Assembly (NCBI RefSeq): GCF_017549005.1
Contig: NZ_JAFYYT010000037.1
Coordinates: 114,190 to 178,189 of the forward strand
DNA length: 64,000 nucleotides
DNA from: Ruminococcus sp.
GTDB lineage: Bacteria > Bacillota > Clostridia > Oscillospirales > Ruminococcaceae
Direction of reading: 5' to 3'
Shown: positions 11,863 through 27,547 of the stretch, in pieces
How positions within the stretch are numbered: the stretch's first letter is position 1
Layout of the letters: each line of letters starts with the position of its first letter
Notes under the pieces: generated by a model
What the model was told of the DNA's origin: nothing
The model's database searches: none
The model's input: the letters and a program-made list of their open reading frames with translations, nothing else
Translations under genes and position numbers: made by a program

Positions 11863-12903
11863 TTATTCACCCATAAGACGGCAGAACTCGCTGAAAGGTA
11901 CCTTTACTATCTCGCACTTGCCGACTTCCTTGCATATAATGTAGTTTATGTCCTTCTTTTCGTTCTTCTTGTCCTTTGAACAGAACGGCAGCAGCTCGCT
12001 CATGGGGATATCGCTGCCTGTTGGGAGCCTGTACGCCGCACAGCACTTCTTCAGCCTTTCGGAGAGCCGCGGTGCCAGTTTATCGGTTATCATGCACATT
12101 CCTGCGGCAACTCCTGCGCCGTGAGCGTAATCAGTGTAGTTGTGCCAGCCCTCGAGAGCGTGTCCGAGTGTATGTCCGAAGTTGAGTATCATGCGCTCTC
12201 CCCTGTCAAACTCGTCATTCTCGACAACTGCACGCTTTATATCAATACATCTGTATACCATTTCATCCATTATTTCGTCCAGGGTCTCAAGATCGTGGGA
12301 CTCCATGAGCCCGAAGAGCTTTTCATCGCGTATCATGCCGTACTTTATGCACTCGCCCATTCCCTCTGAAAGTACCTCGGGGGGAAGAGTTTTCAGTGCG
12401 TCGCTGTCGCAGATGACCAGTGCAGGCTGCTTGAATGCGCCTACCAGGTTCTTGCCGCCGGGGATATCTATGGCAGTCTTGCCGCCTACAGAAGAATCCA
12501 CCTGTGAGAGAAGTGTCGTGGGTATCTGTACGAACTCTACTCCCCTAAGATACGAAGCAGCCGCAAAGCCTGTGATATCACCGACTACTCCGCCGCCGAG
12601 AGCTACTATGATATCAGACCTTGTGATGTTGCTCTCGCAGAGAAAATCGTAGATATTTCCGAGATTTGCAAGGCTCTTTGAGGGTTCGCCGTTGGGGAAG
12701 GCAAATACGCTGCACTCAAAGCCTGCCGCCTTCATCGAGTCCAGTACCGTCTGCAAATGCAGCTTTTCAACGATATCGTCCGTGATAATCGCTGCTTTCC
12801 TTGAATTTGTCACCCTGGATATGTATTCACCGCTTTTTGCAAGTCCGCCGCGCTCTATGAGCACCTCATAGGGGTGACTTGTTTTTACGCTTATCTTCTT
12901 CAT
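11863..12903 (-). CDS. aroB: 3-dehydroquinate synthase
   Basis: 346 residues of usual length. The NAD-binding loop NGEPSK, ALGGGVVGDITGFAAASYLRGV and QIPTTLLSQVDSSVGGKTAID are family hallmarks, with zinc ligands in the NFGHTLGHALEGW segment. It cyclises DAHP to 3-dehydroquinate using NAD+ and a divalent metal. First gene of the operon, behind a consensus promoter and a leader of about 60 nt. Confidence 0.96.
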   Translation of the reverse strand: MKKISVKTSHPYEVLIERGGLAKSGEYISRVTNSRKAAIITDDIVEKLHLQTVLDSMKAAGFECSVFAFPNGEPSKSLANLGNIYDFLCESNITRSDIIVALGGGVVGDITGFAAASYLRGVEFVQIPTTLLSQVDSSVGGKTAIDIPGGKNLVGAFKQPALVICDSDALKTLPPEVLSEGMGECIKYGMIRDEKLFGLMESHDLETLDEIMDEMVYRCIDIKRAVVENDEFDRGERMILNFGHTLGHALEGWHNYTDYAHGAGVAAGMCMITDKLAPRLSERLKKCCAAYRLPTGSDIPMSELLPFCSKDKKNEKKDINYIICKEVGKCEIVKVPFSEFCRLMGE

Positions 12904-12966
12904 ACTGCCAACCTCCGAAAACGTATTGGGATACTGCTATGCGGCAGTTTCCCTGCGCTAATAGAA

Positions 12967-12995
12967 ATTATACCATACAGTATAAGGACTGTCAA
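12967..12995 (-). promoter_or_regulatory. Promoter of the aroB operon
   Basis: Minus-strand TTGACA (12995-12990) and TATAAT (12972-12967) with exact 17-bp spacing and a TGG extension before the -10. The leader has a small stem but no recognised riboswitch. Confidence 0.8.
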
Positions 12996-13050
12996 CACTT
13001 TTTAGCTTTAAAACTTTTAATCGCTGAAAAACTTTTTTCATCGAGCCATA

Positions 13051-13086
13051 AAAATCATGCTGCCGAAAAAATGAAGCATGATTTTT
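13051..13086. terminator. Terminator-like hairpin upstream of the tRNA gene
   Basis: AAAATCATGCT and its complement flank a 13-nt loop, with T tracts on both sides. No gene ends nearby on the plus strand, so it may insulate the tRNA promoter or belong to an unrecognised short transcript. Confidence 0.5.
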
Positions 13087-13096
13087 AACTATTTGC

Positions 13097-13126
13097 TTGA
13101 CAATCTACCGCTTTCTATGATATAAT
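13097..13126 (+). promoter_or_regulatory. Promoter of tRNA-Leu
   Basis: TTGACA at 13097 and TATAAT at 13121, 18 bp apart; the tRNA 5' end is 12 bp past the -10. Confidence 0.82.
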
Positions 13127-13138
13127 ATTTACTGATGT

Positions 13139-13225
13139 GCCGATGTGATGGAATTGGCAGACGTGACGGACTCAAAATCCGTTGGTGGCAACACCGTGCG
13201 GGTTCGACCCCCGCCATCGGCACCA
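13139..13225 (+). tRNA. tRNA-Leu (CAA anticodon)
   Basis: Acceptor stem GCCGATG/CATCGGC, anticodon stem ACGGA/TCCGT with loop CTCAAAA placing CAA at positions 34-36, a long class II variable arm (GGTGGCAACACC), T-loop GGTTCGACC, discriminator A and encoded CCA. It reads UUG leucine codons. A hairpin shared with the end of the guaA element lies 55 bp downstream. Confidence 0.96.
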
Positions 13226-13278
13226 TATTTAGACGTCACAATGGAGATAATACTCATTTGACGTTAGTGAAAATCATA

Positions 13279-13358
13279 CAAAAAGAGCTATCCGATTCGT
13301 AAATGAATCAGATAGCTCTTTTCTTTGCAGACAATTATTATATCACTGTTGCCGATAA
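13279..13358. repeat. Vestigial copy of an integrative-element end, with terminator hairpin
   Basis: These 80 bp match 32030-32109 at about 89% identity by hand alignment (9 mismatches, no gaps). Shared features are the hairpin AGAGCTATC/GATAGCTCT and the arm-type motif TGTTGCCGATAA. It lies just 3' of tRNA-Leu and may now terminate that transcript. The rest of the gap to 13565 is AT-rich with no supported gene. Confidence 0.7.
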
Positions 13359-13565
13359 CAAGGATATCTATGCAACCAAAAGCACGGTATTACGATGCTT
13401 TGACATTTATCTGCATTTTTCGCTCGATGCCTTAACAAGTTTTTCATGGTATCTGATATTTTTATTGCCTATTTTACGTAGTTTTTATATTCCATATTTT
13501 CACAATTATATGCAGTTTTATAATGTCAAAACAGTATCAGTGATACTGAATAAAACCATTCTTTT

Positions 13566-15020
13566 TTATTTGTTAATGTCAAGTTCGATACTGAAAACAC
13601 TTCCTATGCCTACCCCGGACTCTGCCTTGCAAACGCCGTTATGCTGGCTGACGATCTGCTTTACGATTGCGAGTCCCAGTCTGGAAACGCCCTTGCCGCT
13701 GCGCTGACGCTTGGTATAGTATCTGTCCCAGATGTGTTCAAGCTCGTCGGGAGCAATACCGCTGCCATGGTCGGATATTTCAATAATTGCCTTATCATTA
13801 TCGGTTCTTAACGAAATACCTGTCCATTTGTCCTCTCCTGCATGGCGGACAGCATTATCCAGCATGTTGTACACCGCTCTCTGAAGACGTGAAACATTGC
13901 CTTTGACATGAATATCATCAGTAATACTCCGCTCAAAGACATAGCCTTCCTTTGAATACAGTTTCTCAAAGCTGTCTGCAACAGATGTTACTGTTTCACT
14001 GAGATCAACGTCATTCATCACAGTTTCGTGGTCGAACATCTGCAGCTCGGAATATTCAAGTATCTCATTTACAAGAGCAGTGAGCCTGTCCGTTTCCTCT
14101 ACGATAACTGCTACGTCCTCGGCGCACTGTTTTTCGTCCTCACGGGATATATCTATTATCATTTCGGCGTATCCCTTTATCATAGTCAGTGGAGTACGCA
14201 GGTCATGGGATACGTTTGCAAGAAGTTCGTTCTGGAATTCCCTGTTCTTTTTCAGCTTTTCCGATGTAGTATCAAGAGTTTTGTTCAGCTCGTCAAGCTC
14301 TGTGCAGAAGCCCTCGCTGAAAGCCATATCATCATCTTTTTCGCCAAGCTTATGTGCTTTTTCATTAAGCTGTGAAACAGGCTTTGAAAAGCTCTTTGAC
14401 ATGAACAGAGCAAGCACAAATCCGACCACCACAGACAACAGTGTGACCCATACAAGCAGTATACGAATGATACGAGCCGCCGAGCCTACTGCATTAAGGG
14501 TAGTTCCAACGTAAAGAACAGCTTTTTCATCGCTCCCATACAGATCAATAAGCTTACCGTATACATAAATATCCTCGGTTTGCATCTCTGATTCACCATT
14601 TTCAGATGCAGTAACATCGTTAATGAATGCTTTATAATATTCCGGAAGCGACCTGTAATGATAATGATTGTGCCTGTTCATTTCCATTCTTTCGTCTGAC
14701 CATTCATTGTAATCTGCTATGAATCTGTGACCCTTCTTGTATTCATCAGAACTGTATAAAACATTGCCGTCAGTATCGGTGACAAATATAAGAACTGAAT
14801 TCTCTCTTGAAACATCATCAATATACGACGAAATATCGCCGCTTTGACTTTCCGAGGATATTTTACCGGCAACCTTTACGGTATTCCTGATTATCATGCC
14901 GTTGTAGAATTTTTGCAGAAAAACCGTCTGCAAAAGCCACAGAACAGTGAATATCACGACTGTAAAAAACATAAACCAGCTGAGCAGCTTTTTCCGGAAC
15001 GAATTTGTTTTACGCTTCAA
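13566..15020 (-). CDS. Sensor histidine kinase
   Basis: 484 residues starting with TTG at 15020 (GGGGTGGG upstream; the next in-frame Met lies inside the first membrane segment). Two membrane helices (about 12-30 and 180-205) flank an extracytoplasmic sensor region; a HAMP linker follows. The H box NVSHDLRTPL places the phosphorylated His at about 272. The N box is NMLDNAVRHA and the G boxes are DHGSGIAPDE and SRLGLAIVKQ. It overlaps the response regulator gene by 11 bp, so the pair is one two-component system. The signal is unknown. Confidence 0.93.
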   Translation of the reverse strand: MKRKTNSFRKKLLSWFMFFTVVIFTVLWLLQTVFLQKFYNGMIIRNTVKVAGKISSESQSGDISSYIDDVSRENSVLIFVTDTDGNVLYSSDEYKKGHRFIADYNEWSDERMEMNRHNHYHYRSLPEYYKAFINDVTASENGESEMQTEDIYVYGKLIDLYGSDEKAVLYVGTTLNAVGSAARIIRILLVWVTLLSVVVGFVLALFMSKSFSKPVSQLNEKAHKLGEKDDDMAFSEGFCTELDELNKTLDTTSEKLKKNREFQNELLANVSHDLRTPLTMIKGYAEMIIDISREDEKQCAEDVAVIVEETDRLTALVNEILEYSELQMFDHETVMNDVDLSETVTSVADSFEKLYSKEGYVFERSITDDIHVKGNVSRLQRAVYNMLDNAVRHAGEDKWTGISLRTDNDKAIIEISDHGSGIAPDELEHIWDRYYTKRQRSGKGVSRLGLAIVKQIVSQHNGVCKAESGVGIGSVFSIELDINK

Positions 15021-15684
15021 ATTTATATCCCACCCCTCGCACTGTTTTTATGCTGTCACGGTATGCTCCGAGCTTGCTTCGGAGAAGCTTTATCTGCCAG
15101 TCAACGGTTCTGTCAACGCCGAAACTGTCATAGCCCCACACCTCGTTGAGTATCCTGTCACGGGTAAGAACTATACCCTTGTTTTTCACGAGAAGCAGCA
15201 GAATTGCATACTCTTTTGCGGTCAGATCAGCCTTTTCGCCGTCAACAGTAACTGTCAGCCCGAGCGTGTCTACCTCAATCCCACTGACACAAAGCTTTCC
15301 GCTTTCCGATTTCTGTTCGATGATCCTGCTGTGGCTGAGTATGACCTTGATACGTGCTATCAGCTCCATAGGAGAAAACGGCTTCGTTACATAGTCGTCA
15401 ACTCCCACCTCGAAGCCGAAGAGCTTGTCGAACTCCGTACCTCTTGCGGACAGCATTATCACGGGAATATCCTTGAATCCCTTTATCTTCTTGCAGGCGG
15501 TGAAACCGTCCGTATCGGGCATCATTACGTCCATGATTATAACGTCGAAATCCTCGGTCTTGCACTTATCTATGGCTTCACGTCCGTCATAAGCGGTAAC
15601 GATATCATACCCCTCACGCTGAGCATAGCGGCTTATGAGGGTGACTATATTCGGTTCGTCGTCAACTATCAGTATCTTCGGCAT
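15010..15684 (-). CDS. OmpR/PhoB-family response regulator
   Basis: 224 residues. The receiver domain (1-120) has the acidic pair DDE (8-10), phospho-acceptor Asp52 in IIMDVMMPD and Lys101 in the VTKPF motif. The C-terminal winged helix (about 130-222) shows LTAKEYAILLLLVKN and SIKTVRGVGYKFEA, typical of OmpR-type DNA binding. First gene of the pair with the overlapping kinase; likely activated by it. GGAGG precedes the ATG. Confidence 0.95.
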   Translation of the reverse strand: MPKILIVDDEPNIVTLISRYAQREGYDIVTAYDGREAIDKCKTEDFDVIIMDVMMPDTDGFTACKKIKGFKDIPVIMLSARGTEFDKLFGFEVGVDDYVTKPFSPMELIARIKVILSHSRIIEQKSESGKLCVSGIEVDTLGLTVTVDGEKADLTAKEYAILLLLVKNKGIVLTRDRILNEVWGYDSFGVDRTVDWQIKLLRSKLGAYRDSIKTVRGVGYKFEA

Positions 15685-15713
15685 GGCACACCTCCGCAGT
15701 TTTTATTGTAAAT

Positions 15714-15750
15714 ATTATACATGAAAAGCGCCCTTTTGTAAAGAGCGCCT
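15714..15750 (-). promoter_or_regulatory. Promoter of the two-component operon, overlapping a terminator-like hairpin
   Basis: On the minus strand TTTACA (15742-15737) and TATAAT (15719-15714) are 17 bp apart. The same bases form the stem GCGCTCTTT/AAAGGGCGC followed by TTTT, which could stop an upstream minus-strand transcript or occlude the promoter. Confidence 0.55.
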
Positions 15751-16604
15751 TTGTTTCAACGGAACTGTCTGCCGCCGTGATCTCCCTGCTGTGTGCTTTG
15801 GAGAGATGTGTTTGTTTCGCGGTAAAAGCCGGATCTATAATCTGAACATCCGGAAGGTCTGTATCGCATTTCACAAATTCATCACATAATGATTGCCTTT
15901 ATTCCACATTACAACTGTTCATTCCACACTAAATCCATTTATCTTTCATAAAAGCACGTTATAATACAATCAAGCAAATACTCACAGACGAAAAGAAGTT
16001 ATTTTATACTTACAGAAATAATTTATGCTCTGTATATTTTTAAGATTTATTTAAGGTCTGTATATTATCATGTAATTATTTGATAATGTTAAACCTCCGA
16101 GTCCATTTTCGTTCAGTAGTACGCTCTCTGAGGTTTAAGTTCGGACATAACAAAAAGTGGAATTTGCCAAGCCCTCTCCTTAGCTTATAAATCGGCGGTT
16201 ATTGCGCTTTACAGTCAAATGTTGTGATGTTTTGTTTGCATCTGATTTTTGATAAAAACGCCAAATAATTGATATACTTCTTTGAGCTTATTTATTACAA
16301 TACTTTCAGTAATATGTGCGCGCCGATAAACTTTAAGTATCATAGCACCTTGCTTTTCTGCATACGATCAGCTTTTTATCATAATATGCTTTTTTCAACT
16401 TCATCAATGCAGGATATTACACTAAATAAGGAATACAAAGCAGTTTCAGCACAGGTGAGATCTATGACACAAAAGTGTATTGAACCGCTTCAATACATAC
16501 AATGCAATAAACAGCTCTCATATCTCCGCAAAAAGCTTCTGTTAAGGAAATATGACTGCCGTTTTATATAATATCTCAACATCAAGTCTTGTACAAAAGG
16601 GAAC
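15751..16604. other. Long AT-rich intergenic region with inverted repeat
   Basis: About 850 bp between divergent operons with no gene I can support. It holds the inverted repeat TTAAACCTC (about 16088) / GAGGTTTAA (about 16138), a smaller one CCGGAT/ATCCGG near 15830-15855, and two copies of TCTGTATATT about 28 bp apart near 16030-16065. The sequence could be the leader or control region of the dehydratase-like operon. Confidence 0.5.
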
Positions 16605-17879
16605 GTGATCGAAATGATAAGAAAAAACGACAGGACCGGTGTATATGCAGGCGAATACAGCGACACCCTCAACAGCATAATGTCACATCAGGAAAAATAC
16701 CTTCCTGAAATCAAGTATTTCCTCGATACCGAATATACATGGTCAAGCAGCAAAACCAAATCTCAGCAGCGCCCCTCAGTTGTTATCCTCGGAACTGGCA
16801 TACCCGAGGAGCTCGTTATGGCGGCAGGAACGGAACCCTACTGGCTTATCGGCGGAAGTCTCGGCTCGGCTGCATGGTCGGACGAGCTTGTGCCCCGGGA
16901 TACAGATCCCGTGAGCCGTTCTATCCTCGGATATATCCACCAGCCTGACGGAGCAGATTTTTCAGAATCCCTTTTTATTATTCCGATCACGAGCGACAGC
17001 ATGAGAAAGATCGCATATCAGCTCAAGGCTGAGGGAAGAAAAATATGTCTTGTGGACGTTCCGCCTGACCGTAGTGATGACAGGGCCAAAGAAAAATGGC
17101 AGCGCCAGATGATGGACATGGTGGAAACTATCTCTGCTCATACAAGGAAACGTATAAAAAAAGACAATATAGAAGCGGCTGCTTTAAGAGTATCCAAGGC
17201 CCGCTGTGCATTATCGACTTTTCTCAATGTTTCCCGAGGACGTTCCGATATAATCTGCGATGATGCACGACTGCTCGTTCAGGACAGCTATTACCGCACC
17301 GCAAATCTTGATGAATGGACGTATCATGTACAGCTTCTCACCGCCAATGTCACTGACATGGCAAGCCGTTACGTCAATGCGGGAAACAACAGACCGAATG
17401 TTGTCATAATGGGCTCCCCCATAGCTTTCCCCAATTACAAGATTCCGTTTCTTGTTCATGATGTCGGCCTGACCCTGCTGGATACCATCGACTGCTCAGC
17501 ATTGAAGCATGAGGTCCTGCACGAAAGAAACAGTCTGTCCGGCAGCTGCGAAAGCATGATAAGAAATATTGCTTCGTTATGGTATGACAGGGACGCTTCA
17601 TCTGCATTTGTAAGGAACAATGCCCTTTTTGAATATATTTCCCGTCTTGTCAGAAATCGCGATATCGAGGGCGTGGTATACCATGTTCTCAAGGGACAGA
17701 TAGAATACGACTTTGAGCTTGAACGCTTTGAAGCGCTTTTCTCAAAGTACAATATACCCGTGTTCAGACTTGAGACAGATTATCAGTATCAGGACGTTGA
17801 ACAGCTCAGGATACGCCTTGAAGCTTTCTCGGAAATGCTCACGCAGAACCGCTACAAAGAGGTGAGAAAAGCAAAATGA
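16605..17879 (+). CDS. 2-hydroxyacyl-CoA dehydratase/double-cubane-type subunit lacking cluster cysteines
   Basis: 424 residues from a GTG at 16605; an ATG at 16614 is equally possible. It aligns along its length with the product of 19056-20366: PEELVMAAG versus PQELIYAAG, TGSPI-type GSPIAFPNYKIP versus GSPIVFPNMKIP, and GVVYHVLKG...DYQYQDVEQLRIR versus GVIYHVLRG...DYNEEDVEQLRIR. But where that protein has cysteines this one has others: RDTDP for RDACP, ITSDSMRK for VTCDCKKK, LKGQIEYDFE for LRGCLVYDFE, and no CPCP. It therefore probably cannot hold the [Fe-S] cluster and may be a structural, substrate or regulatory partner. First gene of a five-gene operon. Confidence 0.8.
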   Translation: MIEMIRKNDRTGVYAGEYSDTLNSIMSHQEKYLPEIKYFLDTEYTWSSSKTKSQQRPSVVILGTGIPEELVMAAGTEPYWLIGGSLGSAAWSDELVPRDTDPVSRSILGYIHQPDGADFSESLFIIPITSDSMRKIAYQLKAEGRKICLVDVPPDRSDDRAKEKWQRQMMDMVETISAHTRKRIKKDNIEAAALRVSKARCALSTFLNVSRGRSDIICDDARLLVQDSYYRTANLDEWTYHVQLLTANVTDMASRYVNAGNNRPNVVIMGSPIAFPNYKIPFLVHDVGLTLLDTIDCSALKHEVLHERNSLSGSCESMIRNIASLWYDRDASSAFVRNNALFEYISRLVRNRDIEGVVYHVLKGQIEYDFELERFEALFSKYNIPVFRLETDYQYQDVEQLRIRLEAFSEMLTQNRYKEVRKAK

Positions 17880-19045
17880 GAAAGAAAAAACGTATTATAG
17901 CTGCAGGCATTATATGTGCCGTTTTACTTGCGCTCGCTTATTTTGCCGCATATCTGCCTTTTTATAAATTCGGAGAGGGCAGCTACGCTACAAGTCTGAA
18001 AAAGATATTTTCATCTGAGTACATAAAGACTGTTGCACCGCTTTTCATCATATTCGCCGTTTCTGCTCTCGGTATAGTTCTGATAGTGTGTATCAGAAAA
18101 AAACTGATGAGCAAGGGAAGGAACAGCTCCGTATATGCAAACAGATACAGCGTCAGAGGCGCGGGAAAAGCTCCGAAGCAGAAGCTGTCGCTGTTTATGA
18201 TGATTCGCTGGGCATTAATGACAGCATTTACTGTTTTTATGATATGGGGCGGACTGCTGTCCGGACTCAGGAATGAGAACATCAGCATACCTGTGTTTTC
18301 ATGTCCTGCCAACACAGTTCAGCCGACAGAAGCAAGCTGCTATTTCCTGTCACATCTGAACGTGCTTTTTACTCTTCCCATAAAGAATATCATAATCTTT
18401 TTTGTAAGCACACTGCTCTTTACGATATTGCTCGGACGCGCCATGTGCGGCTTTCTGTGTCCTATGGGACTTATACAGGACATCATGGACAAGATACGCA
18501 AAAAGACAAAAACCAAGGGCATATCTGCCAATGAAAAGATGTATTCGGCGTTCAAGCCTATAAAATGGTTCATGATACTGCTGTTTATCGGTCTTTGCTT
18601 CATAGGCGGAAATTTCTGTGATTTCTGCCCTGCGATAACTGTATCGCCCATACTTGCAGGTCTCGGAGTGAGCCTTTATGTCAGCGGATTCCTTATGATA
18701 TTCATTCTCATAGGCAGCTTCTTCAAGCGCAGGCTTTTCTGCAACGTCTGTCCTCTCGGATATCTTGTGGGACTTTTTCACAAGGTATCGCTGTTCCGCA
18801 TAAAGAAGGACTGCACAACCTGCACCGAATGCGGAGCCTGCTATGAAGCCTGTCCCATGGGAATAAAGACCATATACACCGAAAGAGAAAAAGCAGACGT
18901 TACCGAAGCCAACTGCATTATGTGCGGAGAGTGCGTAAAATGCTGTCCCGAGGACAATGCGCTTTCCCTGACAGTTGCAGGAAAGAAGCTGTATACCGCT
19001 TCAAGGAAAAATGTAATGTCGGGCTATGCTCCGAAAGATCATTGA
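17876..19045 (+). CDS. Membrane polyferredoxin of the NapH/NosR type
   Basis: 389 residues. About six membrane helices carry two CxxxCP-like motifs (RAMCGFLCPMG and RLFCNVCPLG), followed by two [4Fe-4S] ferredoxin motifs (CTTCTECGACYEACP and CIMCGECVKCCP, about 315-365). NapH/NosR-type proteins pass electrons between the membrane and soluble redox partners. Its ATG overlaps the preceding stop (ATGA), and the activator and cluster protein follow, so it likely supplies low-potential electrons to them. That direction is inference. Confidence 0.85.
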   Translation: MRKKKRIIAAGIICAVLLALAYFAAYLPFYKFGEGSYATSLKKIFSSEYIKTVAPLFIIFAVSALGIVLIVCIRKKLMSKGRNSSVYANRYSVRGAGKAPKQKLSLFMMIRWALMTAFTVFMIWGGLLSGLRNENISIPVFSCPANTVQPTEASCYFLSHLNVLFTLPIKNIIIFFVSTLLFTILLGRAMCGFLCPMGLIQDIMDKIRKKTKTKGISANEKMYSAFKPIKWFMILLFIGLCFIGGNFCDFCPAITVSPILAGLGVSLYVSGFLMIFILIGSFFKRRLFCNVCPLGYLVGLFHKVSLFRIKKDCTTCTECGACYEACPMGIKTIYTEREKADVTEANCIMCGECVKCCPEDNALSLTVAGKKLYTASRKNVMSGYAPKDH

Positions 19046-19055
19046 GGTGAGAACC

Positions 19056-20366
19056 ATGATAACAATATCAAGAGATCAGGAGCGAAAAGCTCGTCAGGAC
19101 AAGCGTTTCATAAATAAGGAAACGCAGACTTCGGAAAAATACCTGCGCCGTATTGAGGAGCTTCCGGGAGCTCCCGAAGGAATGAAAGCTTTTCTCGACG
19201 TTCTGGAGCATATATATGTTGATATGCACGGTGTGGATATTCCCCAGAGACAAAAGACCATAGGCACTTACTGCGTCATGGTGCCGCAGGAGCTTATATA
19301 CGCTGCAGGAGCTGTTCCTGTAAAGCTTTGCAGCGGCAATTACACGGCATTTTTCATAGGCGACGATATCGCTCCCCGTGACGCCTGTCCGCTGGTAAAG
19401 GCGGTGGCAGGCTTCAAGCATACGGGACTCATGCCAGTTTATGAGAACTGCTCCATGATGATTGTTCCTGTCACCTGTGACTGCAAAAAGAAAATAGCAG
19501 GAATGCTCGGCGATTACTGTGACGTTATGACCATGCACGTGCCTACTACCAAGAACGATGACGATATTGACGAATTTGTGGATCAGCTTTACGACCTTGC
19601 GGAAAGGCTTGAAAGCATCACAGGAAATAAGATAACCTACGATTCCCTTTCAGCTGCATTCTATAAAGTCGGACGGGCACAGTATGAGCTTTCAGAGTTT
19701 ATAAAGCTGAAAAGACAGAGCCCCTACCTTATAAGAGGCACTCACGCTATGACTATAATGAACGCTTACGGATATATGCCTGCGGATAAATGGGCAGATG
19801 CCCTCAGAAGCGTAAATATGTCCCTCAGTCTCCGTGCAGTGAAGGGTGAGAAGGTGACCGCAAAGAAACTGCCGAGAATACTTCTGACAGGCTCTCCCAT
19901 AGTGTTCCCGAACATGAAGATACCGCTTCTTATTGAAGAAATGGGCGGTATTGTCGCAGGTGACGAGACCTGCATGGGCGAGCGCGGTATGTGGGATCCT
20001 CCCGTGATAACCGATAACAGCTTTGACGGTATGATGAGAGCTCTTGCGAACCGCTCCCTCCGTCCGTGTCCGTGTCCGACCTTTGCCGACAACAGTCAGC
20101 GTATATACCGTCTGAAACAGCTGATAAAGGAGAATCAGATACAGGGTGTTATCTACCACGTTCTGCGCGGCTGTCTCGTATACGATTTTGAGTACAAGCG
20201 TATCGAGGACGAGCTCGGAAAGCTGGATATACCAGTTATACGCCTTGAAAGCGACTACAACGAGGAAGATGTCGAACAGCTTCGCATACGTATTGAAGCT
20301 TTCATTGAGCTTATCAAGCTTCGCCAGCCAGTTGAAAAGAATACAAATATACGCAGGGAGCTTTAA
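19056..20366 (+). CDS. 2-hydroxyacyl-CoA dehydratase/double-cubane cluster-type protein with full cysteine set
   Basis: 436 residues from the ATG at 19056, preceded by GAGGTGAG. Conserved cysteines are at 73, 92, 111 (PRDACPLVK), 132, 141 and 143 (VTCDCKKK), 306 (DETCMGE), 338 and 340 (RPCPCP) and 373 (RGCLVYDFE). This pattern is typical of the HgdB/BcrB-fold family that includes 2-hydroxyacyl-CoA dehydratases and the double-cubane cluster protein, whose [8Fe-9S] centre is charged by an ATP-driven activator. RPCPCP plus TCDxKKK fits the double-cubane branch better than true dehydratases. Its substrate is unknown. The cysteine-poor paralogue two genes upstream suggests a heterodimer. Confidence 0.83.
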   Translation: MITISRDQERKARQDKRFINKETQTSEKYLRRIEELPGAPEGMKAFLDVLEHIYVDMHGVDIPQRQKTIGTYCVMVPQELIYAAGAVPVKLCSGNYTAFFIGDDIAPRDACPLVKAVAGFKHTGLMPVYENCSMMIVPVTCDCKKKIAGMLGDYCDVMTMHVPTTKNDDDIDEFVDQLYDLAERLESITGNKITYDSLSAAFYKVGRAQYELSEFIKLKRQSPYLIRGTHAMTIMNAYGYMPADKWADALRSVNMSLSLRAVKGEKVTAKKLPRILLTGSPIVFPNMKIPLLIEEMGGIVAGDETCMGERGMWDPPVITDNSFDGMMRALANRSLRPCPCPTFADNSQRIYRLKQLIKENQIQGVIYHVLRGCLVYDFEYKRIEDELGKLDIPVIRLESDYNEEDVEQLRIRIEAFIELIKLRQPVEKNTNIRREL

Positions 20367-20378
20367 GGAGTAAAGACA

Positions 20379-21164
20379 ATGGGAAAATACTACATAGGAC
20401 TTGACGGCGGCTCCACTTATCTTAAAGCCGCTCTTATCGGAAATAATAAAGTCATTGACACTATGGTGCGGAATACGGGAATAGACAATGACGGTACCGC
20501 ACGTAAGCTCGTCCGTGAGCTTTGTGACAACAATGGCATAACGCCATCGGATATAGGCTATATAATGGCGACAGGCTACAGCCGCAAGGTGCTTGAAGTA
20601 GCTGACGACGATATCTCGGAGATAACCGCTCACGCATATGGTGTGCGCCTTACTGCGCCAAAGGACTACCGCCCAGGAATGATAATCGACATCGGCGGTC
20701 AGGACTCCAAGATAATTTATCTCGACAGCAAATATGCAGTGAAAAATTTCAGTATGAATGACAAATGCGCCGCAGGAACAGGCAAGTTCATGGAAGTCAT
20801 AGCACAGATACTTGAAACTACCATCGACAACGTGGGTCCTCTTTCACTGGAAGCTACAAATCCATGTGATATCAACAGTACCTGTGTTGTTTTCGCGCAG
20901 TCCGAGGTCATATCGCTTGTTGCAAGAAAGTATGACCGCCGTGATATACTTGCAGGTATGCATATCTCAATGGCAAGACGTATCGTAAAGATGATGAAGA
21001 AGTCCGAGAAGGACGGAGATATCCTTATGACAGGAGGAGGCTCCCTGAATATAGGTCTCCATAAAGCCTTCGAGGAAGAGCTTATGAGAGATGTGTTCGT
21101 AGCTGATTATCCGCAGTTCAACGGTGCAATAGGCGCCGCGCTAATTGCCAGCGAAAGAGGTTGA
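20379..21164 (+). CDS. ATP-dependent activator (HgdC/BadF/BcrA family)
   Basis: 261 residues of the ASKHA ATPase fold: GLDGGSTYLKA (7-17) binds phosphate, DIGGQDSK (104-111) is the second phosphate loop, and TGGGSLN lies near 224. Cys130 in NDKCAAGTG and Cys169 in NSTCVVFAQSE are the ligands of the [4Fe-4S] cluster bridging the homodimer. Such archerases couple ATP hydrolysis to one-electron reduction of the dehydratase or double-cubane partner. It starts 12 bp after that partner gene, with AAGGAG. Confidence 0.92.
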   Translation: MGKYYIGLDGGSTYLKAALIGNNKVIDTMVRNTGIDNDGTARKLVRELCDNNGITPSDIGYIMATGYSRKVLEVADDDISEITAHAYGVRLTAPKDYRPGMIIDIGGQDSKIIYLDSKYAVKNFSMNDKCAAGTGKFMEVIAQILETTIDNVGPLSLEATNPCDINSTCVVFAQSEVISLVARKYDRRDILAGMHISMARRIVKMMKKSEKDGDILMTGGGSLNIGLHKAFEEELMRDVFVADYPQFNGAIGAALIASERG

Positions 21165-21168
21165 TCCT

Positions 21169-21876
21169 ATGGGCTTTTCGGTACTGATAGAGAGCATGAC
21201 AGCGGCGGCTTCCGTCGGAATGGGCTGCGGTACCTGCTGCGGCTCGGGAATAAGTGCGGCACTGTATGGTTATCTCACAACTCATACGAAGAACATCAAG
21301 CAATCTGTCAAAGCGTTTCTTGATTTCTTTTTCGGAAAATTCCTTGCAGTGATACTGCTTTGCTGTGCAGCTTCACTGGTCGGTTCAAGCGTTATAGACG
21401 ATGACGGACGAGTATTCGGTATAAAAGCTGCACTTATAGTTGACGCTGTTATGCTTGCTATGGGAATATGGTTCCTTATAGGCTGGATAAGAGAAAGAAA
21501 AGGCGTCCACAACTGTAAAAGCTGTAAGAGCTGCAAGACAGACAAAGCTGAAAAGCTTACAGCAGATAAAACACATCACGCGGCTCTGATAGGCATGGGC
21601 TTCGGCTATGGTATATCGCCCTGTGCGCCGCTGATACTTATAACGGGCTATGCAGCGACTCTGCCTGTCGGTTTTGCGGCAATTCTCGGTGCTGTATTTG
21701 CTCTTGCAAGCACGATTTCTCCTGTGCTTTTCATAATGCTTATCTCAGGTGCCCTTGCAAAGAGAATGAATAAAGAGATACCACAGTATCTTACTTGGTT
21801 CAGACTTGGCTGCTATATCCTGCTGATAGTGTTATTTTCTATAGGTCTCGTAAAAGAGGTCATTAAAATTGCATGA
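21169..21876 (+). CDS. CcdA/DsbD-like membrane protein with cysteine motifs
   Basis: 235 residues from the ATG at 21169, 4 bp after the activator stop. Six or so membrane helices in two related halves: VGMGCGTCCGSGISAALYGY in the first and MGFGYGISPCAPLILITGY in the second, as in the CcdA/DsbD/TauE-like superfamily that moves reducing equivalents or anions across the membrane. A cytoplasmic-sized loop holds NCKSCKSCK, an unusual CxxCxxC cluster. In this operon a redox role with the polyferredoxin is more likely than sulfite export, but that is inference. Confidence 0.7.
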   Translation: MGFSVLIESMTAAASVGMGCGTCCGSGISAALYGYLTTHTKNIKQSVKAFLDFFFGKFLAVILLCCAASLVGSSVIDDDGRVFGIKAALIVDAVMLAMGIWFLIGWIRERKGVHNCKSCKSCKTDKAEKLTADKTHHAALIGMGFGYGISPCAPLILITGYAATLPVGFAAILGAVFALASTISPVLFIMLISGALAKRMNKEIPQYLTWFRLGCYILLIVLFSIGLVKEVIKIA

Positions 21877-21934
21877 ATGTTACTACATTTTTTCACATAT
21901 CAGAGAAATGATGCTCTGTACGGACTCAGAAATT

Positions 21935-21986
21935 AAACAAAACCCTGACTGAAATTACTCTGTAAAATCAGTCAGGGTTTTGTTTA
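21935..21986 (+). terminator. Terminator of the dehydratase-like operon
   Basis: Long stem AACAAAACCCTGACT with complementary AGTCAGGGTTTTGTT, 20-nt loop, T-rich end. It closes the five-gene operon about 60 bp past its last stop. Confidence 0.88.
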
Positions 21987-22049
21987 GTATCAAGAGCCTG
22001 TCAGTGGTGATACAAACGGCGTATCCAAGTCATTTGTTCTGAGAAGGTT

Positions 22050-22062
22050 ATTATTCCCACTC
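22050..22062. repeat. Left attachment-site core (att)
   Basis: ATTATTCCCACTC, identical to the guaA-terminal copy at 32194-32206. Flanking bases differ on both sides, so the core is 13 bp. Confidence 0.8.
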
Positions 22063-22162
22063 GCTCCTTGAACCGTAATCTTAACCAGTTTGAGTTAAGT
22101 TTTATCGCTCGTGGTATCTCTATTATCTCAGTTGTCTGTCAGATTTGGAGTATCTGATTTTT

Positions 22163-22180
22163 TGTTGCCATTGTGTTGCC
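22163..22180. promoter_or_regulatory. Left-end arm-type integrase sites
   Basis: Two TGTTGCC motifs 11 bp apart (22163 and 22174). The right end has motifs with the same 11-bp spacing and orientation, as expected for integrase arm binding. Confidence 0.6.
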
Positions 22181-22202
22181 GGAAGAAGCTGAAAGTGAAA
22201 CT

Positions 22203-25200
22203 TTAAATGTTGACTTTCTGATCAATTAGCGCTTGAAGTTTTTCGGCAATGTCTTTCTTGCATTGTTCAACCGCCAAATACTTCGCAGCTATCTCTTTCT
22301 GTGCATTTAAATCTATATTTCCGTCTTTATCAACAGGAACAGGTACCATTACGTCATCTAACATTGAAGGATAGAGCTTGGTGAACTCATCTTCTCCATT
22401 ATCGCCTTTACGTCCTTTTGCCATATCACGGAAAATAGGCTCTAACGTGAATTTCATATAATCGAAATCAAGGTCCGTTCTTCCGTCTCTTGGAACTAAA
22501 ATTCCTCTGTCACCATTGATTGAAAATTTTCCATCAAGTATGAGTATAGTGCCAGCAAACCCATTTGTTGACCATGTCATATATTTTCCGTTATAATCAT
22601 AGGTGTTAATATATGTCAATGGTGCAAAACTCGAAGCAGAATATACGGGATATTCTCCACTATTAGTATTTCCATACTTCTTAGTGTATTTTGCTAATCC
22701 CTTTGTTGTGGAGAACAGTAATGGTAATTTAAAACGAGTCATAGTATAGCAATCTAAATCTAGTTCAACTTTCAAATTATCCACTGTATTCTTATGGCAT
22801 TTTAAAGTCTCAATTAATTCGTCATAATAATGATAAATTTCAACTATATCTTTTTGCTTGTTTACATCAAAAATGCCCTCTGAATTTGTAGGAATGGTTA
22901 TTTCTATCGGTCTTAGGTTTCGGGCGTTAGCTTTATGCGCATGATTGAAACCATATTTTGACTTAATATCCCTAAGCATTGCCAAAACAAATTCAATAAC
23001 AATAGAATTATTAACGGATCGTATGGCAATTCTATCAGTATTAATATAGAATGGTTTTGTATGAAGGATGAAGTTTCTGCCAGCAGATCCATCTCCATTT
23101 GTAGCAACAGACAAGATTGGAAATGCTTCCGAAGCATCTATTGGTACTTTAGATTCAATCCTTTCAATATATGCGACCGGATATTTGCTTGCTGAAAAAA
23201 CAGGAATATCATCTTCATTATTTGTGTTAAGCGAGGAGAGAATGGTATTGTTTTTCCCAATCGAAGATGTTACCAACTGAAAACAAGAATCATCTCCTAT
23301 TTTTACAGTTGCTATTTGTCCGTCATTCACGTTTTTTTTTTCAAGCTCTTTTAGCGGTTCTTGGAACTCAAGAATAGAATCTGACACATCAGATATAAAT
23401 GAAATAAAATTAGATAAGCTTATTGATGATTCACGTTCTTCAATGCCAAGATTAATTCTTTCTTCATGTGTCCACCAACGTTCAACACACCAGTGAGATC
23501 CTTCATAAAAGTCTTTGATATCAACAATCTTACAGCGCTTATCCTCAGATTTAAATTTGCTTTTAGCTCCCTTGAACATATTGAACAAATCTGATGCGAC
23601 TTCTAAATCATTCTGCTCAATGTCGAAGCGATATACATCACGGGTCTCGCCAATCTCAGAACACAGATAGGTAAATACTGGAGTAGTCTGTTTCTCCAAT
23701 GTTGGTGTACCGTTGACGCTAATAGGTTCTTTCTTTGTAAGAGCTAAAATATATGTTTTCTTATTGGTCGTAAAGAACGTATTCAAAGGCAAGGAGATTA
23801 CAGCATCTATTATACAATTCTCTAATATAAAATCCCTGAGTTTCTTATCGTTACTACGATTCATTATGCCATCAGGAACAACAATAAATGCTTTACCATT
23901 AGGCTTAAGAGCACGAACAATCCATTCCATGAATAAACCTTCTATACCCATAGCACTGATAGTATAGTGAGCCTTTAATTCATCTTGCTTGGAGATTTCT
24001 TCTTTCAGATTGCTACTTCCGCTCATAACATAAGGCGGATTTGTAAGTATCAAATCGTATTCTTCTTTTATAGGCTGAGCCAATGTACCGAGAATCGTAT
24101 TAGTCTGCAAGAAAAATGTTTTATTAAACAATTCAGAGAATTGCTCGGTAATGCCAGGGTTTTCTTTGATCATGCTTGACATATAAATCAGCATATTTGC
24201 TTTGGCAAGTATAATTGTCTTCTGTTCTTCCTTATCAAAGCCCTTATCAAATCCTGACAAGGAAATCTGAGGAGAAAGTACCCCATTCTCAACCTTAAAG
24301 TATTTATGCAGATCATGAAGAATAGGTTCAAGCAGGAATTTACCAACTCCACAAGCCGGATCGCACACTTTCATTCCAGTTGAAAGCTCTACCATGTTAA
24401 CAATAGCACGAACAACTTTTAAAGGTGTAAAATACTGTCCCCAGTTCTTCTTGCTTATTGATTCCTTAAGGAATGTTTCAAACAGTTTACTCTTGAAGTC
24501 ATAGTCAATGTTTTCAAGAGTACCGAAATCATTAAAGCGATTAAGAATACGTCTGAAGACTGTGGCATACCCCGAAACAGCCTTATCATCTTTTGAAACA
24601 AAGATAGTGCCGTTGATAATTGTGGTCTTGTCTTTAGGATTCCACGGGAACAACTGTTTAATCTTGACACGGATTGTTTGAGCGTAAAAATCGAGAACAT
24701 CATCGTCAGTATTACTGCCATACTGAGATAATAGGCTGTAGAAAGAGTGAACTCCCTGAAGAACGCCTAAATCACTGAGGTATTTAAAGATGAATATCTC
24801 AACAAATGTGTAAAGACAGTTTTCTGGTGTCGCACCGGAAACAGCCCATAAATCCTGCCAGACTTTCTGTGCTAAAGGCAGCGGATCTACAGCAGAGGGT
24901 GGTTTGATTTGATCATTATCTGATGTTATGGACGCAGTTATCTTGTTGATTAAGTTTATACAATCTGTGCTATTCTTATCAAAATTTAAAGTGATATTGC
25001 TTCCGTCTTCCTGAGTGATTTCATTACCCGTCTTAGGATTTACCCAAATAGATTTTTTGCCATCAGTAATGATGTATATTTTAGCATTTAATGCTCTTGC
25101 AGTACCGAGTTCTTGAGCAATTGCCTTTTCAATCTGCTTTTGTGTGCGTAACTGCTGGGGAGTTTTATACTCGATGGCTGCGATTACAATAGGCTTTTTG

Positions 25201-25370
25201 ACTATCAAAGCATCAGGTTTTTTCTTTTCGTACTCATCATAGTCATGATCGGGGATAATCTTGGCACTTTTCAGAGCTTTTAGTGTTGTAGCTCCGATGT
25301 TGTAAAAATTCCAATCTCCCATCTTTTCAGGAGAATCAACAAGATTACGCTGAATCAATTCCTCACTCAT
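22203..25370 (-). CDS. Single-chain type IIG restriction-modification enzyme (R-M-S fusion)
   Basis: 1055 residues from the ATG at 25370. An N-terminal PD-(D/E)xK-like nuclease (about 45-75: Asp53 in KKPDALI, Glu67 and Lys69 in AIEYK) is followed by an N6-adenine methylase (about 160-560) with SAM motif VCDPACGVGKFLL and catalytic NPPY near 444. Two HsdS-like target-recognition regions follow (about 690-870 and 890-1050); the second has GEYPVYSASSF and MTWSTNGFAGT. No helicase is seen, so it is type IIG rather than type I. Host DNA would be protected and invaders cut by one polypeptide. More AT-rich than flanking chromosome. It overlaps the upstream HTH gene by 8 bp. Confidence 0.85.
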   Translation of the reverse strand: MSEELIQRNLVDSPEKMGDWNFYNIGATTLKALKSAKIIPDHDYDEYEKKKPDALIVKKPIVIAAIEYKTPQQLRTQKQIEKAIAQELGTARALNAKIYIITDGKKSIWVNPKTGNEITQEDGSNITLNFDKNSTDCINLINKITASITSDNDQIKPPSAVDPLPLAQKVWQDLWAVSGATPENCLYTFVEIFIFKYLSDLGVLQGVHSFYSLLSQYGSNTDDDVLDFYAQTIRVKIKQLFPWNPKDKTTIINGTIFVSKDDKAVSGYATVFRRILNRFNDFGTLENIDYDFKSKLFETFLKESISKKNWGQYFTPLKVVRAIVNMVELSTGMKVCDPACGVGKFLLEPILHDLHKYFKVENGVLSPQISLSGFDKGFDKEEQKTIILAKANMLIYMSSMIKENPGITEQFSELFNKTFFLQTNTILGTLAQPIKEEYDLILTNPPYVMSGSSNLKEEISKQDELKAHYTISAMGIEGLFMEWIVRALKPNGKAFIVVPDGIMNRSNDKKLRDFILENCIIDAVISLPLNTFFTTNKKTYILALTKKEPISVNGTPTLEKQTTPVFTYLCSEIGETRDVYRFDIEQNDLEVASDLFNMFKGAKSKFKSEDKRCKIVDIKDFYEGSHWCVERWWTHEERINLGIEERESSISLSNFISFISDVSDSILEFQEPLKELEKKNVNDGQIATVKIGDDSCFQLVTSSIGKNNTILSSLNTNNEDDIPVFSASKYPVAYIERIESKVPIDASEAFPILSVATNGDGSAGRNFILHTKPFYINTDRIAIRSVNNSIVIEFVLAMLRDIKSKYGFNHAHKANARNLRPIEITIPTNSEGIFDVNKQKDIVEIYHYYDELIETLKCHKNTVDNLKVELDLDCYTMTRFKLPLLFSTTKGLAKYTKKYGNTNSGEYPVYSASSFAPLTYINTYDYNGKYMTWSTNGFAGTILILDGKFSINGDRGILVPRDGRTDLDFDYMKFTLEPIFRDMAKGRKGDNGEDEFTKLYPSMLDDVMVPVPVDKDGNIDLNAQKEIAAKYLAVEQCKKDIAEKLQALIDQKVNI

Positions 25371-25560
25371 CATTATCACCTCTATCAGAACTATTTGCAG
25401 TATCCCTAATATACTTGTCTATATCAGTATTCTTAATGCGCCAACGATTTCCAACTTTTGACGCAGTAATCTTTTTTGTATTTATTAAACGCAATATGGT
25501 TTTATTACAAACCTTTAAATATTCTGCCGCTTGCGAGACAGTCATCATTTCGTCTGACAT
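25363..25560 (-). CDS. Small helix-turn-helix DNA-binding protein (excisionase family)
   Basis: 65 residues from the ATG at 25560, with GAGGTG upstream. The core EMMTVSQAAEYLKVCNKTILRLINTKKITASKVGNRWRI is the MerR-like HTH_17 fold of excisionases and small regulators. It overlaps the start of the restriction-modification gene, so the two are co-transcribed and probably coupled. Given that position a control role over the enzyme is more plausible than excision, for which another candidate sits beside int. Confidence 0.78.
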   Translation of the reverse strand: MSDEMMTVSQAAEYLKVCNKTILRLINTKKITASKVGNRWRIKNTDIDKYIRDTANSSDRGDNDE

Positions 25561-26168: not shown

Positions 26169-27368
26169 TTATTCCAGCACATTCTTTCTTGTAGTGCTGT
26201 TGTACTTGTACTGCTGATAATCGGAACTCAGTCCGCAGGCAGAAATAAAAGCCTTTGCCTTTTTCAGTTCACGCGACAGCTCATCCTCACGGCTGATTCG
26301 CTTTGCTTCTTTTTTCAGCTGATCACGGGTGAAAAGTCCCTTTTGCTCCTCGGTTTTCTTGTAAGCGGCAAGCTCCGAGGAAACCGCTGATAGCTTAGCT
26401 TTCAGTTCGTCACGCTCCCGTACAGCTTCATCACGTTCCTTACGAAGTTTCTTTGTCTGTTTCTGCGTTGCTACTTCCTTCTTTGCAAGGTCGGTAATGT
26501 TCTGCCAATCCTCCTGCGACACCGTGACCTTACCGCCGAATACAGTCTTACCTGTTTCGATGCTATCTATCTCCGCAAGTTTAGCGGTTTTCTCCTTGAC
26601 CGCTTTGAGTGTTTCACGTTTTTCCACAAGCTCCGCTTCGACCTGAGCATTCTGCTCTGCCAGTTCATCTGCCTGACGGCGCTGTTCCTTATACTCAGGT
26701 ATCTCAACCGTCCCTCTTGCCTTTTCGGGAGCGAGAGGCTGGATACCGTGTTCAAGGCAGATTTTGTACAGCACTTCGACCTCGGCAGCTCTCCACTTGG
26801 CGATAGCCATTTTTCCTTCGCCGTACCCCATTTCTTTCAGAGCCTGGGCGATACCGTTCTGAACGTCCTGTCCTCGCTTGTAGTGACCGACAGGAATGTA
26901 GTCGATGTGCAGGTGCGGCGTTGCCTCGTCCATGTGCAGGACAGCGTTAAAAACGTAAAAGTTCGGATTGCGATTCTGGAAACCTTCCATGTACTCTTTC
27001 AGGCAGTCGGCAACGAGCTGAAAGTCCTCAGTGCCGTACCCCGAATCTTCCTTCTTGCCGATCTGAACAACGTCCTCATAAAAGCTCTTGCGCTTGTCGG
27101 CAGCAGTGCGGACAGTGTTGCAGGGCTTCACGCCAAAAAGGTGTTCGTAGTAGCTGCCGTGAACCTTACGGTCGTTACGCTTCTGTTTGGCATTGTAACG
27201 CTCGGTGGATTCAGCAAAAAGCTGATCGTATGCTTCGTCTATCGGCTGACGCACGAAGGTGATGTTTTGCGGAGTGCGGAGCGGATCAACATTGTCCGCC
27301 ATGAACTCTCTATTGTTGTGAGTCAGAGAACCCTTTCCCTGACCGAATGAGATTCTTTTCTGTTTCAT
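26169..27368 (-). CDS. MobV-family relaxase (Mob/Pre)
   Basis: About 399 residues from the ATG at 27368 (AAAGG upstream; 27389 is an alternative). The MobV signature HxDExxPHxH appears as HMDEATPHLH from residue 145, preceded by a Mob_Pre N-terminus with RISFGQGKGSLTHNNREF. The C-terminal half (about 240-370) is a long coiled coil rich in Lys and Glu. The enzyme nicks oriT and leads the DNA strand during conjugative mobilization. Candidate oriT hairpin lies about 180 bp upstream. With the MobC-like protein and RepA-like ATPase it forms the transfer module. Confidence 0.88.
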   Translation of the reverse strand: MKQKRISFGQGKGSLTHNNREFMADNVDPLRTPQNITFVRQPIDEAYDQLFAESTERYNAKQKRNDRKVHGSYYEHLFGVKPCNTVRTAADKRKSFYEDVVQIGKKEDSGYGTEDFQLVADCLKEYMEGFQNRNPNFYVFNAVLHMDEATPHLHIDYIPVGHYKRGQDVQNGIAQALKEMGYGEGKMAIAKWRAAEVEVLYKICLEHGIQPLAPEKARGTVEIPEYKEQRRQADELAEQNAQVEAELVEKRETLKAVKEKTAKLAEIDSIETGKTVFGGKVTVSQEDWQNITDLAKKEVATQKQTKKLRKERDEAVRERDELKAKLSAVSSELAAYKKTEEQKGLFTRDQLKKEAKRISREDELSRELKKAKAFISACGLSSDYQQYKYNSTTRKNVLE

Positions 27369-27547
27369 AGTTTTGCCTTTCTTGTTCATTGGATTTACTT
27401 CTCTATCTCTACGAAATCCAATCAAAAAATCATAGGCATCAACTCCTTTCTTGACCGCTAAGGCGGAAGGGCTATCGCCAGCCCTGACGGGCAATTTCCC
27501 CTGAACGACACAAGAGATGGTCGCAGGGAAAAAGCTGCGGAGCAGCG

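Follow-up and report, generated by a model that had tools for sequence, protein, structure and literature searches.

A five-gene operon in a 64,000-nucleotide stretch of Ruminococcus sp. DNA (contig NZ_JAFYYT010000037.1, positions 114,190 to 178,189; hereafter, at its full length, the window) encodes a double-cubane-type protein of the HGD-D family, dccp, and a paralogue, para, which has lost the cluster ligands yet is under purifying selection and not decaying. Some anaerobes of guts and other oxygen-free places appear to carry a reductase, driven by ATP and linked to the membrane, of whose two sister subunits one is free of clusters yet strongly conserved. With about even confidence the system is read here as a membrane-coupled archerase, in which dccp would be the electron module, para the cluster-free, substrate-binding half of an asymmetric pair, and the third protein, mem, the link to the membrane. 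The genes lie on the forward strand, and each overlaps the next or sits within about 12 bases of it:

16605..17879, + strand, para: cluster-free HGD-D paralogue, 424 amino acids (aa), GTG start
17876..19045, + strand, mem: NapH-like membrane Fe-S protein, 389 aa
19056..20366, + strand, dccp: double-cubane-type HGD-D protein, 436 aa from the ATG at 19056
20379..21164, + strand, act: archerase-type ATPase activator, 261 aa
21145..21876, + strand, dsbd: DsbD_2/CcdA-like membrane protein, 243 aa

The Pfam family PF06050 (HGD-D) was matched by para with 152.6 bits and by dccp with 296.3 bits, and these were the only matches at E ≤ 0.001 in the genome of the window (93.8% complete). The nearest solved structure of dccp was that of the double-cubane cluster protein, DCCP (7yyl/6eno, E 3.9e-67); the para profile matched DCCP structure 7yyl with E 3e-40, and para reached 148.3 bits against the curated DCCP model NF040772 (cut-off 350). 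An alternative ATG of dccp at 19026 would give a protein of 446 aa. The activator exceeded the cut-off of TIGR00241, acyl-CoA dehydratase activase (223 against 125.4 bits), and its Cys130, 163 and 169 are invariant in 64 of 64 orthologues; archerase activators share a [4Fe-4S] cluster between two monomers, with two Cys from each (PMC11574389, available part). Fer4_5 (51 bits), Fer4_9 and Fer4_10 domains above cut-off and a C-terminal 4Fe-4S dicluster region were found in mem. The dsbd product matched PF13386 (33.3 bits, cut-off 24.9) and shows the motifs CGTCC and SPCAP, with Cys28, 32, 130 and 160 present in 62/62 orthologues.

The ligands of BzdN, which binds [8Fe-9S] via Cys36, 73, 100, 263, 293 and 327 (PMC11971306, in the part available, as throughout), were mapped onto dccp from the printed HMMER alignment, read by eye, and aligned with C73, C111, C141, C306, C340 and C373. 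None of the 68 dccp orthologues lacks any of these six Cys. Equally invariant (68/68) are Cys92, 132, 143 and 338, beyond the six ligands; in 66 generic HGD-D proteins, obtained from family, order and phylum searches and including two identical pairs, the Cys143 position is never Cys and the Cys338 position is non-Cys in at least 64. The ten Cys positions listed in an earlier, sequence-only reading of this DNA were right, and Cys155, a column with Cys in 28 of the 68 orthologues, had been overlooked.

At the same six positions para of the window has G63, D101, S130, C297, S332 and Q365. Its orthologues were compared in 80 rows, namely the window, locus L004 and 78 loci out of the 79 from a single contig scan (124 stretches, 87 relatives, capped at the best 80), L051 being left out since its gene reads in two frames; the rows are partly dependent, as L004 and L023 have equal scores and may be one organism and two metagenome-assembled genomes give two loci each. 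No ligand Cys remains in 63 of the 80 and one remains in 17. Gly63 was found in 79, Asp101 in 80, Ser332 in 77 and Gln365 in 80; position 130 (C141 of dccp) is Ser in 45, Asn in 22, Cys in 12 and Arg in one, position 297 (C306 of dccp) is free to vary, and no column anywhere in para is a conserved Cys among the 80 orthologues. The replacements first noticed, RDTDP, ITSDSMRK and LKGQ for RDACP, VTCDCKKK and LRGC, are as stated. On the other hand, the suggestion that the Cys306 position may be retained has to be withdrawn: Cys297 is present in the window, but its column is Cys in only 5/80, and it is therefore not a retained ligand. It had also been considered that homologues of dccp might lack the same Cys, and the opposite was found. 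Among the 66 other HGD-D proteins, Cys stands at the C111, C141 and C373 positions in 66, 65 and 66, and at each of the C73, C306 and C340 positions in 57, so that the first three are kept even where the remaining three are missing. BzdO holds its catalytic [4Fe-4S] by Cys95, 128 and 380, in the position of the proximal sub-cluster (PMC11971306); C111, C141 and C373 of dccp would match these residues.

The ratio of non-synonymous to synonymous substitution rates (dN/dS) of para was 0.05–0.19 in eight pairs, of which five had saturated dS and the three with low dS gave 0.12, 0.17 and 0.19. An open reading frame (ORF) of at least 380 aa is present in 78/79 loci. With columns taken as independent, four of the six former ligand columns are fixed for a non-Cys residue at ≥95%, against 75/424 columns overall (binomial tail 0.011), and 19/54 columns within four residues of the ligand positions (these included) reach that level, against 56/370 elsewhere (Fisher p 0.0009). 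Since the former ligand columns are more conserved than average, the site has been reused and not released. Residues invariant in all 54 rows of alignment A1 include P97, D99, D101, P102, D131, R134, K135, G364 and Q365, as well as 387–397, 399 and 400 in a C-terminal block that is strong in dccp too; K363 is Lys in 78/80.

The gene order para-mem-dccp-act-dsbd was conserved, with mem next in 76 of 77 loci, dccp in 73/75, act in 66/69 and dsbd in 62/66, counting only loci with a contig long enough or the gene visible. In L078, only the start of mem follows para before a regulator fragment begins; in L087, mem is followed by a recombinase-like ORF (by eye); dccp breaks off in L050, and L052 is without dsbd. 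The paralogue had been expected to be kept beside the cluster protein: the two stand in one operon, with mem between them, in the 73/75 loci, and the proposed check of co-occurrence of the five genes, now carried out, found the order held wherever the contig reaches, bar these few exceptions. Carriers span Firmicutes and Actinobacteria (taxa as in record titles). The titles include Ruminococcus, Acetobacterium, Lachnospiraceae, Oscillospiraceae, Coriobacteriaceae and Atopobiaceae, and the cultured carriers Ruminococcus albus KH2T6, Acetobacterium wieringae DSM 1911, A. fimetarium DSM 8238 and A. dehalogenans DSM 11527. Distribution was patchy. By score, para was present in 2/197 genomes sampled from the same GTDB family (G000, G158), in 5/394 of the order sample (G000, G549 and G489, plus a divergent form, para2, in G358 and G204) and, among 398 genomes of the phylum sample, only in that of the window (next-best match 165.7 bits); relatives of G489 gave 3/60 carriers, G489, G983 (broken) and G204. 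A search for mem without para in Firmicutes gave no other mem match above 130.4 bits among the 398 phylum genomes. Additionally, genome G549 has a second, partial mem-like match (341.8 bits; C190:5059-5814) away from its operon. The distance matrices of the operon genes correlate, with r 0.950 for para-dccp and 0.886–0.969 over all pairs (60 loci).

Genomes G358 and G204 carry a second operon type (loci L159 and L160, nearly identical to each other), which consists of genes for a Crp-type regulator, para2, membrane proteins of 132 aa and (NapH-like) 237 aa, dccp2 and act; the 16 kb there gave no match to dsbd. The 416-aa para2 is also without the ligand Cys (PQISDP, SNADTRK, LKGQ) and shares with para D101, R134, K135, K363 and Q365, though not R98, D99 or D131. 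The sequence-only reading is borne out in part: in two operon types, and in two phyla going by record titles, the cluster-free paralogue is kept together with the cluster-bearing one, an activator and an Fe-S protein of the membrane. The heterodimer that it proposed, the role of the membrane protein as electron donor and not acceptor, and the novelty of the chemistry stay conjectural. In a tree of 55 proteins, para and para2 formed one clade (100/100) and dccp and dccp2 another (97/89), the two were sisters (91/82), and para, dccp and a Sulfurovum protein described below stood apart from generic HGD-D proteins (99/95). If the sister relation holds, the duplication came before the two operon types parted, and para and dccp have since then been passed on as a pair. 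By the second-type operon lie a hybrid cluster protein (Prismane) gene, upstream and on the opposite strand, and Crp-type regulator genes (L159:560-2188 and 4314-4994), a context with a possible tie to nitrosative or hydroxylamine stress. A c-di-GMP-I riboswitch (59.6 bits) stands directly 3' of the second-type act (L159:9498-9586); an RNA scan at gathering score gave no match in eight first-type loci and two matches in all, both in L159.

Beyond the dicluster region, mem has four further Cys, at 143, 155, 248 and 251, present in 75/75 orthologues and probably placed in exofacial loops. Long forms of mem (571–608 aa), with about 200 additional N-terminal aa, occur at L057:7245-9068, L073:7277-8989 and L098:7131-8936, and those of L057 and L073 have weak DUF4198 matches below the cut-off. 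A gene for a tetracysteine protein adjoins the operon in 40 of the 79 loci (e.g. L023:11190-11702, L054:11593-12093, L073:5502-6020). Its product, putatively secreted or anchored, begins with a hydrophobic stretch (by eye) and ends, after a linker of low complexity, in C-x2-C-x3-C-x6-C (CGGCxxNCSLxNPRC), with the Cys pattern invariant in 16/16 aligned sequences; three members scanned gave no Pfam match above cut-off. The pattern was absent from the window and was not found in its genome in a search run without a positive control. This neighbour was considered as a flavinylation protein and rejected, as no FMN-binding domain was present in the three members scanned. Together, the additional Cys of mem, those of dsbd and the tetracysteine protein suggest that redox chemistry of thiols, Fe-S clusters or metals takes place on the outside of the membrane.

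The operon of the window is bordered by the following elements:

13566..15020, - strand: histidine kinase (HATPase_c and HisKA), divergent, upstream of the operon
15010..15684, - strand: OmpR-type response regulator (Response_reg and Trans_reg_C), divergent, upstream of the operon
21930..21988: long inverted repeat 3' of dsbd, with weak, below-gathering matches to hairpin models on both strands

Matches to this kinase were found in 19/79 loci and to the response regulator in 34/79, the latter belonging to a large family and not necessarily all orthologues; recurring kinase families stand beside the operon in 33/79 loci and regulator families in 21/79. Apart from these and the tetracysteine family, no flanking family occurs in more than 7/79, small ones not being all annotated. 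In four of the 79 loci, all titled Acetobacterium, a flanking gene has a weak likeness to carboxymuconolactone decarboxylase (20.7 bits, cut-off 23), and it was discarded as a functional clue. The inverted repeat at about 21930–21988 is probably a bidirectional terminator that ends the operon; a scan for consensus terminators does not include it, and in an RNA-family scan of window positions 12900–22300 only a tRNA reached the gathering score. Further 3' lie genes for a large N-6 methylase-like protein (22203–25379) and a mobilisation-type protein (26169–27494), both assigned by eye, which suggest a mobile neighbourhood.

The mechanism proposed is as follows. An ancestral double-cubane protein would have been duplicated to give dccp and para. 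Like the activators of DCCP and BzdNO, the ATP-driven act would reduce the [8Fe-9S] cluster of dccp, and dccp would keep this cluster as acceptor and store of the electrons of act. Having lost the ligands, para may hold a single cluster-free site formed by the invariant Asp101, Arg134, Lys135 and Gln365 and the near-invariant Lys363; it would most likely bind the substrate, or an oxygen-ligated metal or chelate, to be reduced by electrons from dccp. In the asymmetric pair para would occupy the place of the second subunit, which in BzdNO is BzdO, the holder of substrate and catalytic cluster (PMC11971306). The unit may be tied to redox at the outer face by mem, dsbd and, in the 40 loci that have it, the tetracysteine protein, with a two-component system often flanking. 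The heterodimer, the lining and role of the site, the direction of the electrons, the membrane topology and the substrate are all inferred from sequence, and the electrons may flow either in from outside or out to it. More tentatively, and on balance somewhat doubtfully, the chemistry itself could be of a new kind: an [8Fe-9S] subunit feeding super-reduced electrons to a non-Fe-S site of Asp, Ser, Gln, Arg and Lys in its cluster-free sister, where another metal, a chelate or the substrate may sit, the whole being wired through the membrane to thiol or metal redox outside.

Several observations weigh against this proposal. The immediate neighbour of para is mem and not dccp. The para-dccp correlation is no higher than those of other operon pairs, so that it speaks for co-inheritance and not for contact. 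With a mean identity of 0.45 against 0.63, para evolves faster than dccp. A quick tree of 102 rows agreed with that of 55 proteins, but gave the dccp clade a support of only 77, and the trees were flagged for long branches (para2, Sulfurovum); because of these, the evidence that para and dccp are sister paralogues is moderate. Genome G489 (99% complete, 150 contigs) has an intact 392-aa para, next to a LysR gene and one for a conjugative coupling protein, and no orthologue of dccp or mem: in this assembly the dccp profile matched para only, the best match of the mem profile reached 97.3 bits, and the activator-type protein present is of another, 998-aa kind. Such an orphan argues against a strictly obligate pair. 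In G983, of the same genus, para is cut at about residue 300 and followed by a dccp-type C-terminus and a dsbd-like piece (L205:1205-2364; by eye), beside a LysR gene similar to that of G489. This remnant looks like the product of recombination between the two paralogues and suggests that the orphan is what is left of an operon since lost, but the para of G489 is intact and could function by itself. Finally, the best plasmid match, Sulfurovum mangrovi NZ_CP087125.1, has relatives of dsbd, mem, dccp and act, without para, which is therefore possibly dispensable for the core. Its mem relative (171.8 bits) has the same four additional Cys, and its dccp relative (324.1 bits) is the sole HGD-D match on the 395-kb plasmid record, the part of that strain's genome searched. 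A 722-aa Fe-S membrane protein, likewise with a DUF4198 match below cut-off (20.3 against 34), belongs to this operon, which has TonB receptor genes on both sides and an RND pump gene. The core machine may then be dsbd-mem-dccp-act, with para added in the line of Firmicutes and Actinobacteria; loss of para in Sulfurovum is, by the tree, less likely. As a lead, from a single record, the TonB receptor and RND pump genes around this operon hint at a metal or its chelate as the substrate.

The strongest rival explanation, in itself rather unlikely, is that para stands in for one half of a DCCP homodimer as a non-catalytic docking or gating half, in an asymmetric complex, and holds the cytosolic ferredoxin domain of mem, the ATP-activated electrons crossing the membrane and the chemistry taking place at dccp or outside. 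The two genes overlap by 4 nt in the window and have a median spacing of -1 in 76 loci, and the additional mem Cys and the frequent tetracysteine neighbour would suit such a role. However, a mere adapter has no need of invariant D101, R134, K135 and Q365 at or near the ligand positions, and the Sulfurovum operon has mem and dccp while doing without para. It is improbable that para, instead of being a stable subunit, regulates dccp, for instance by sensing the substrate, or serves as its chaperone or assembly factor; pseudo-enzyme regulators are common and an orphan para can exist, as in G489, but PF06050 was the only domain found in para at E ≤ 0.01, with no DNA-binding domain, and with no conserved Cys it would be ill suited to carry Fe-S precursors as a scaffold.

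A conventional CoA-dependent 2-hydroxyacyl-CoA dehydratase (HAD) or benzoyl-CoA reductase (BCR) with a second subunit that has merely diverged is very improbable. It would share the fold family and the set of two HGD-D subunits and an activator, but the second subunits described for HAD and BzdNO keep a cluster (PMC11971306, PMC11574389, available parts), the HAD and BCR models score far below their cut-offs, and past the tetracysteine, kinase and regulator families there is no widely recurring flanking gene. Functionless decay of a duplicate is scarcely credible. The lost ligands, the faster evolution of para, the one orphan and the one recombined remnant could be taken that way, but the low dN/dS, the 75 strongly conserved columns and the nearly universal intact ORF speak against it. 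The asymmetric, membrane-coupled pair is accordingly preferred to these alternatives, at the confidence given at the outset.

Judged by its proteins, the system is of the archerase/HGD-D kind: dccp fits DCCP by its ligands, not by the curated score, and para lacks the ligand feature of both DCCP and HAD/BCR. DCCP reduces acetylene, hydrazine or azide. The match of dccp to DCCP (NF040772; 6eno, 7yyl) covers almost the full length and all six ligand positions, and one activator gene is likewise present; DCCP consists of two identical monomers that each carry a double cubane (PMC11971306), whereas the locus adds a cluster-free paralogue and membrane genes. The score of dccp against NF040772, 316.2, lies below the cut-off of 350, and 45/45 dccp orthologues scanned matched this model at E ≤ 1e-10. 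BzdNO (8s02) and HadBC (3o3m) resemble the locus in having two different HGD-D subunits and an ATP-driven activator in the operon. They differ in that their second subunits keep a cluster, BzdN carrying [8Fe-9S] and BzdO a single [4Fe-4S] on three Cys (PMC11971306), while para is without conserved Cys. The curated HAD and BCR models gave dccp 94.8 bits (NF052456, cut-off 700), 53.2 (TIGR02263, 421.15) and 53.0 (TIGR03190, 453.8), and no CoA-related gene was recognised among the conserved operon neighbours of the 79 loci. NapH-like, flavinylation-associated systems also have a Fer4_5 membrane protein, which serves them as a modular carrier of electrons across the membrane (PMC8238504, available part), but scans of three tetracysteine neighbours and three long mem proteins showed no FMN-binding domain, and mem scored 81.3 against the NapH/MauN model TIGR02163 (cut-off 213.05). 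Searches of the openly licensed PMC literature gave no title, abstract opening or consulted passage that describes a cluster-free HGD-D subunit or the para operon; PMC7306483 and PMC10418091 were also drawn on in part.

The biological function of DCCPs is called unknown in the available part of PMC11971306. The dedicated membrane genes, the frequent regulators and the Sulfurovum relative amid TonB receptors offer concrete routes to it. In the series of cluster losses, DCCP has a double cubane per monomer, BzdNO has [8Fe-9S] and [4Fe-4S], and HAD has [4Fe-5S] and [4Fe-4S], and the authors of the BzdNO structure propose that loss of a sub-cluster creates a new catalytic function (PMC11971306). 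The para-dccp pair looks like the missing end point of this series, [8Fe-9S] plus nothing, tied to the membrane.

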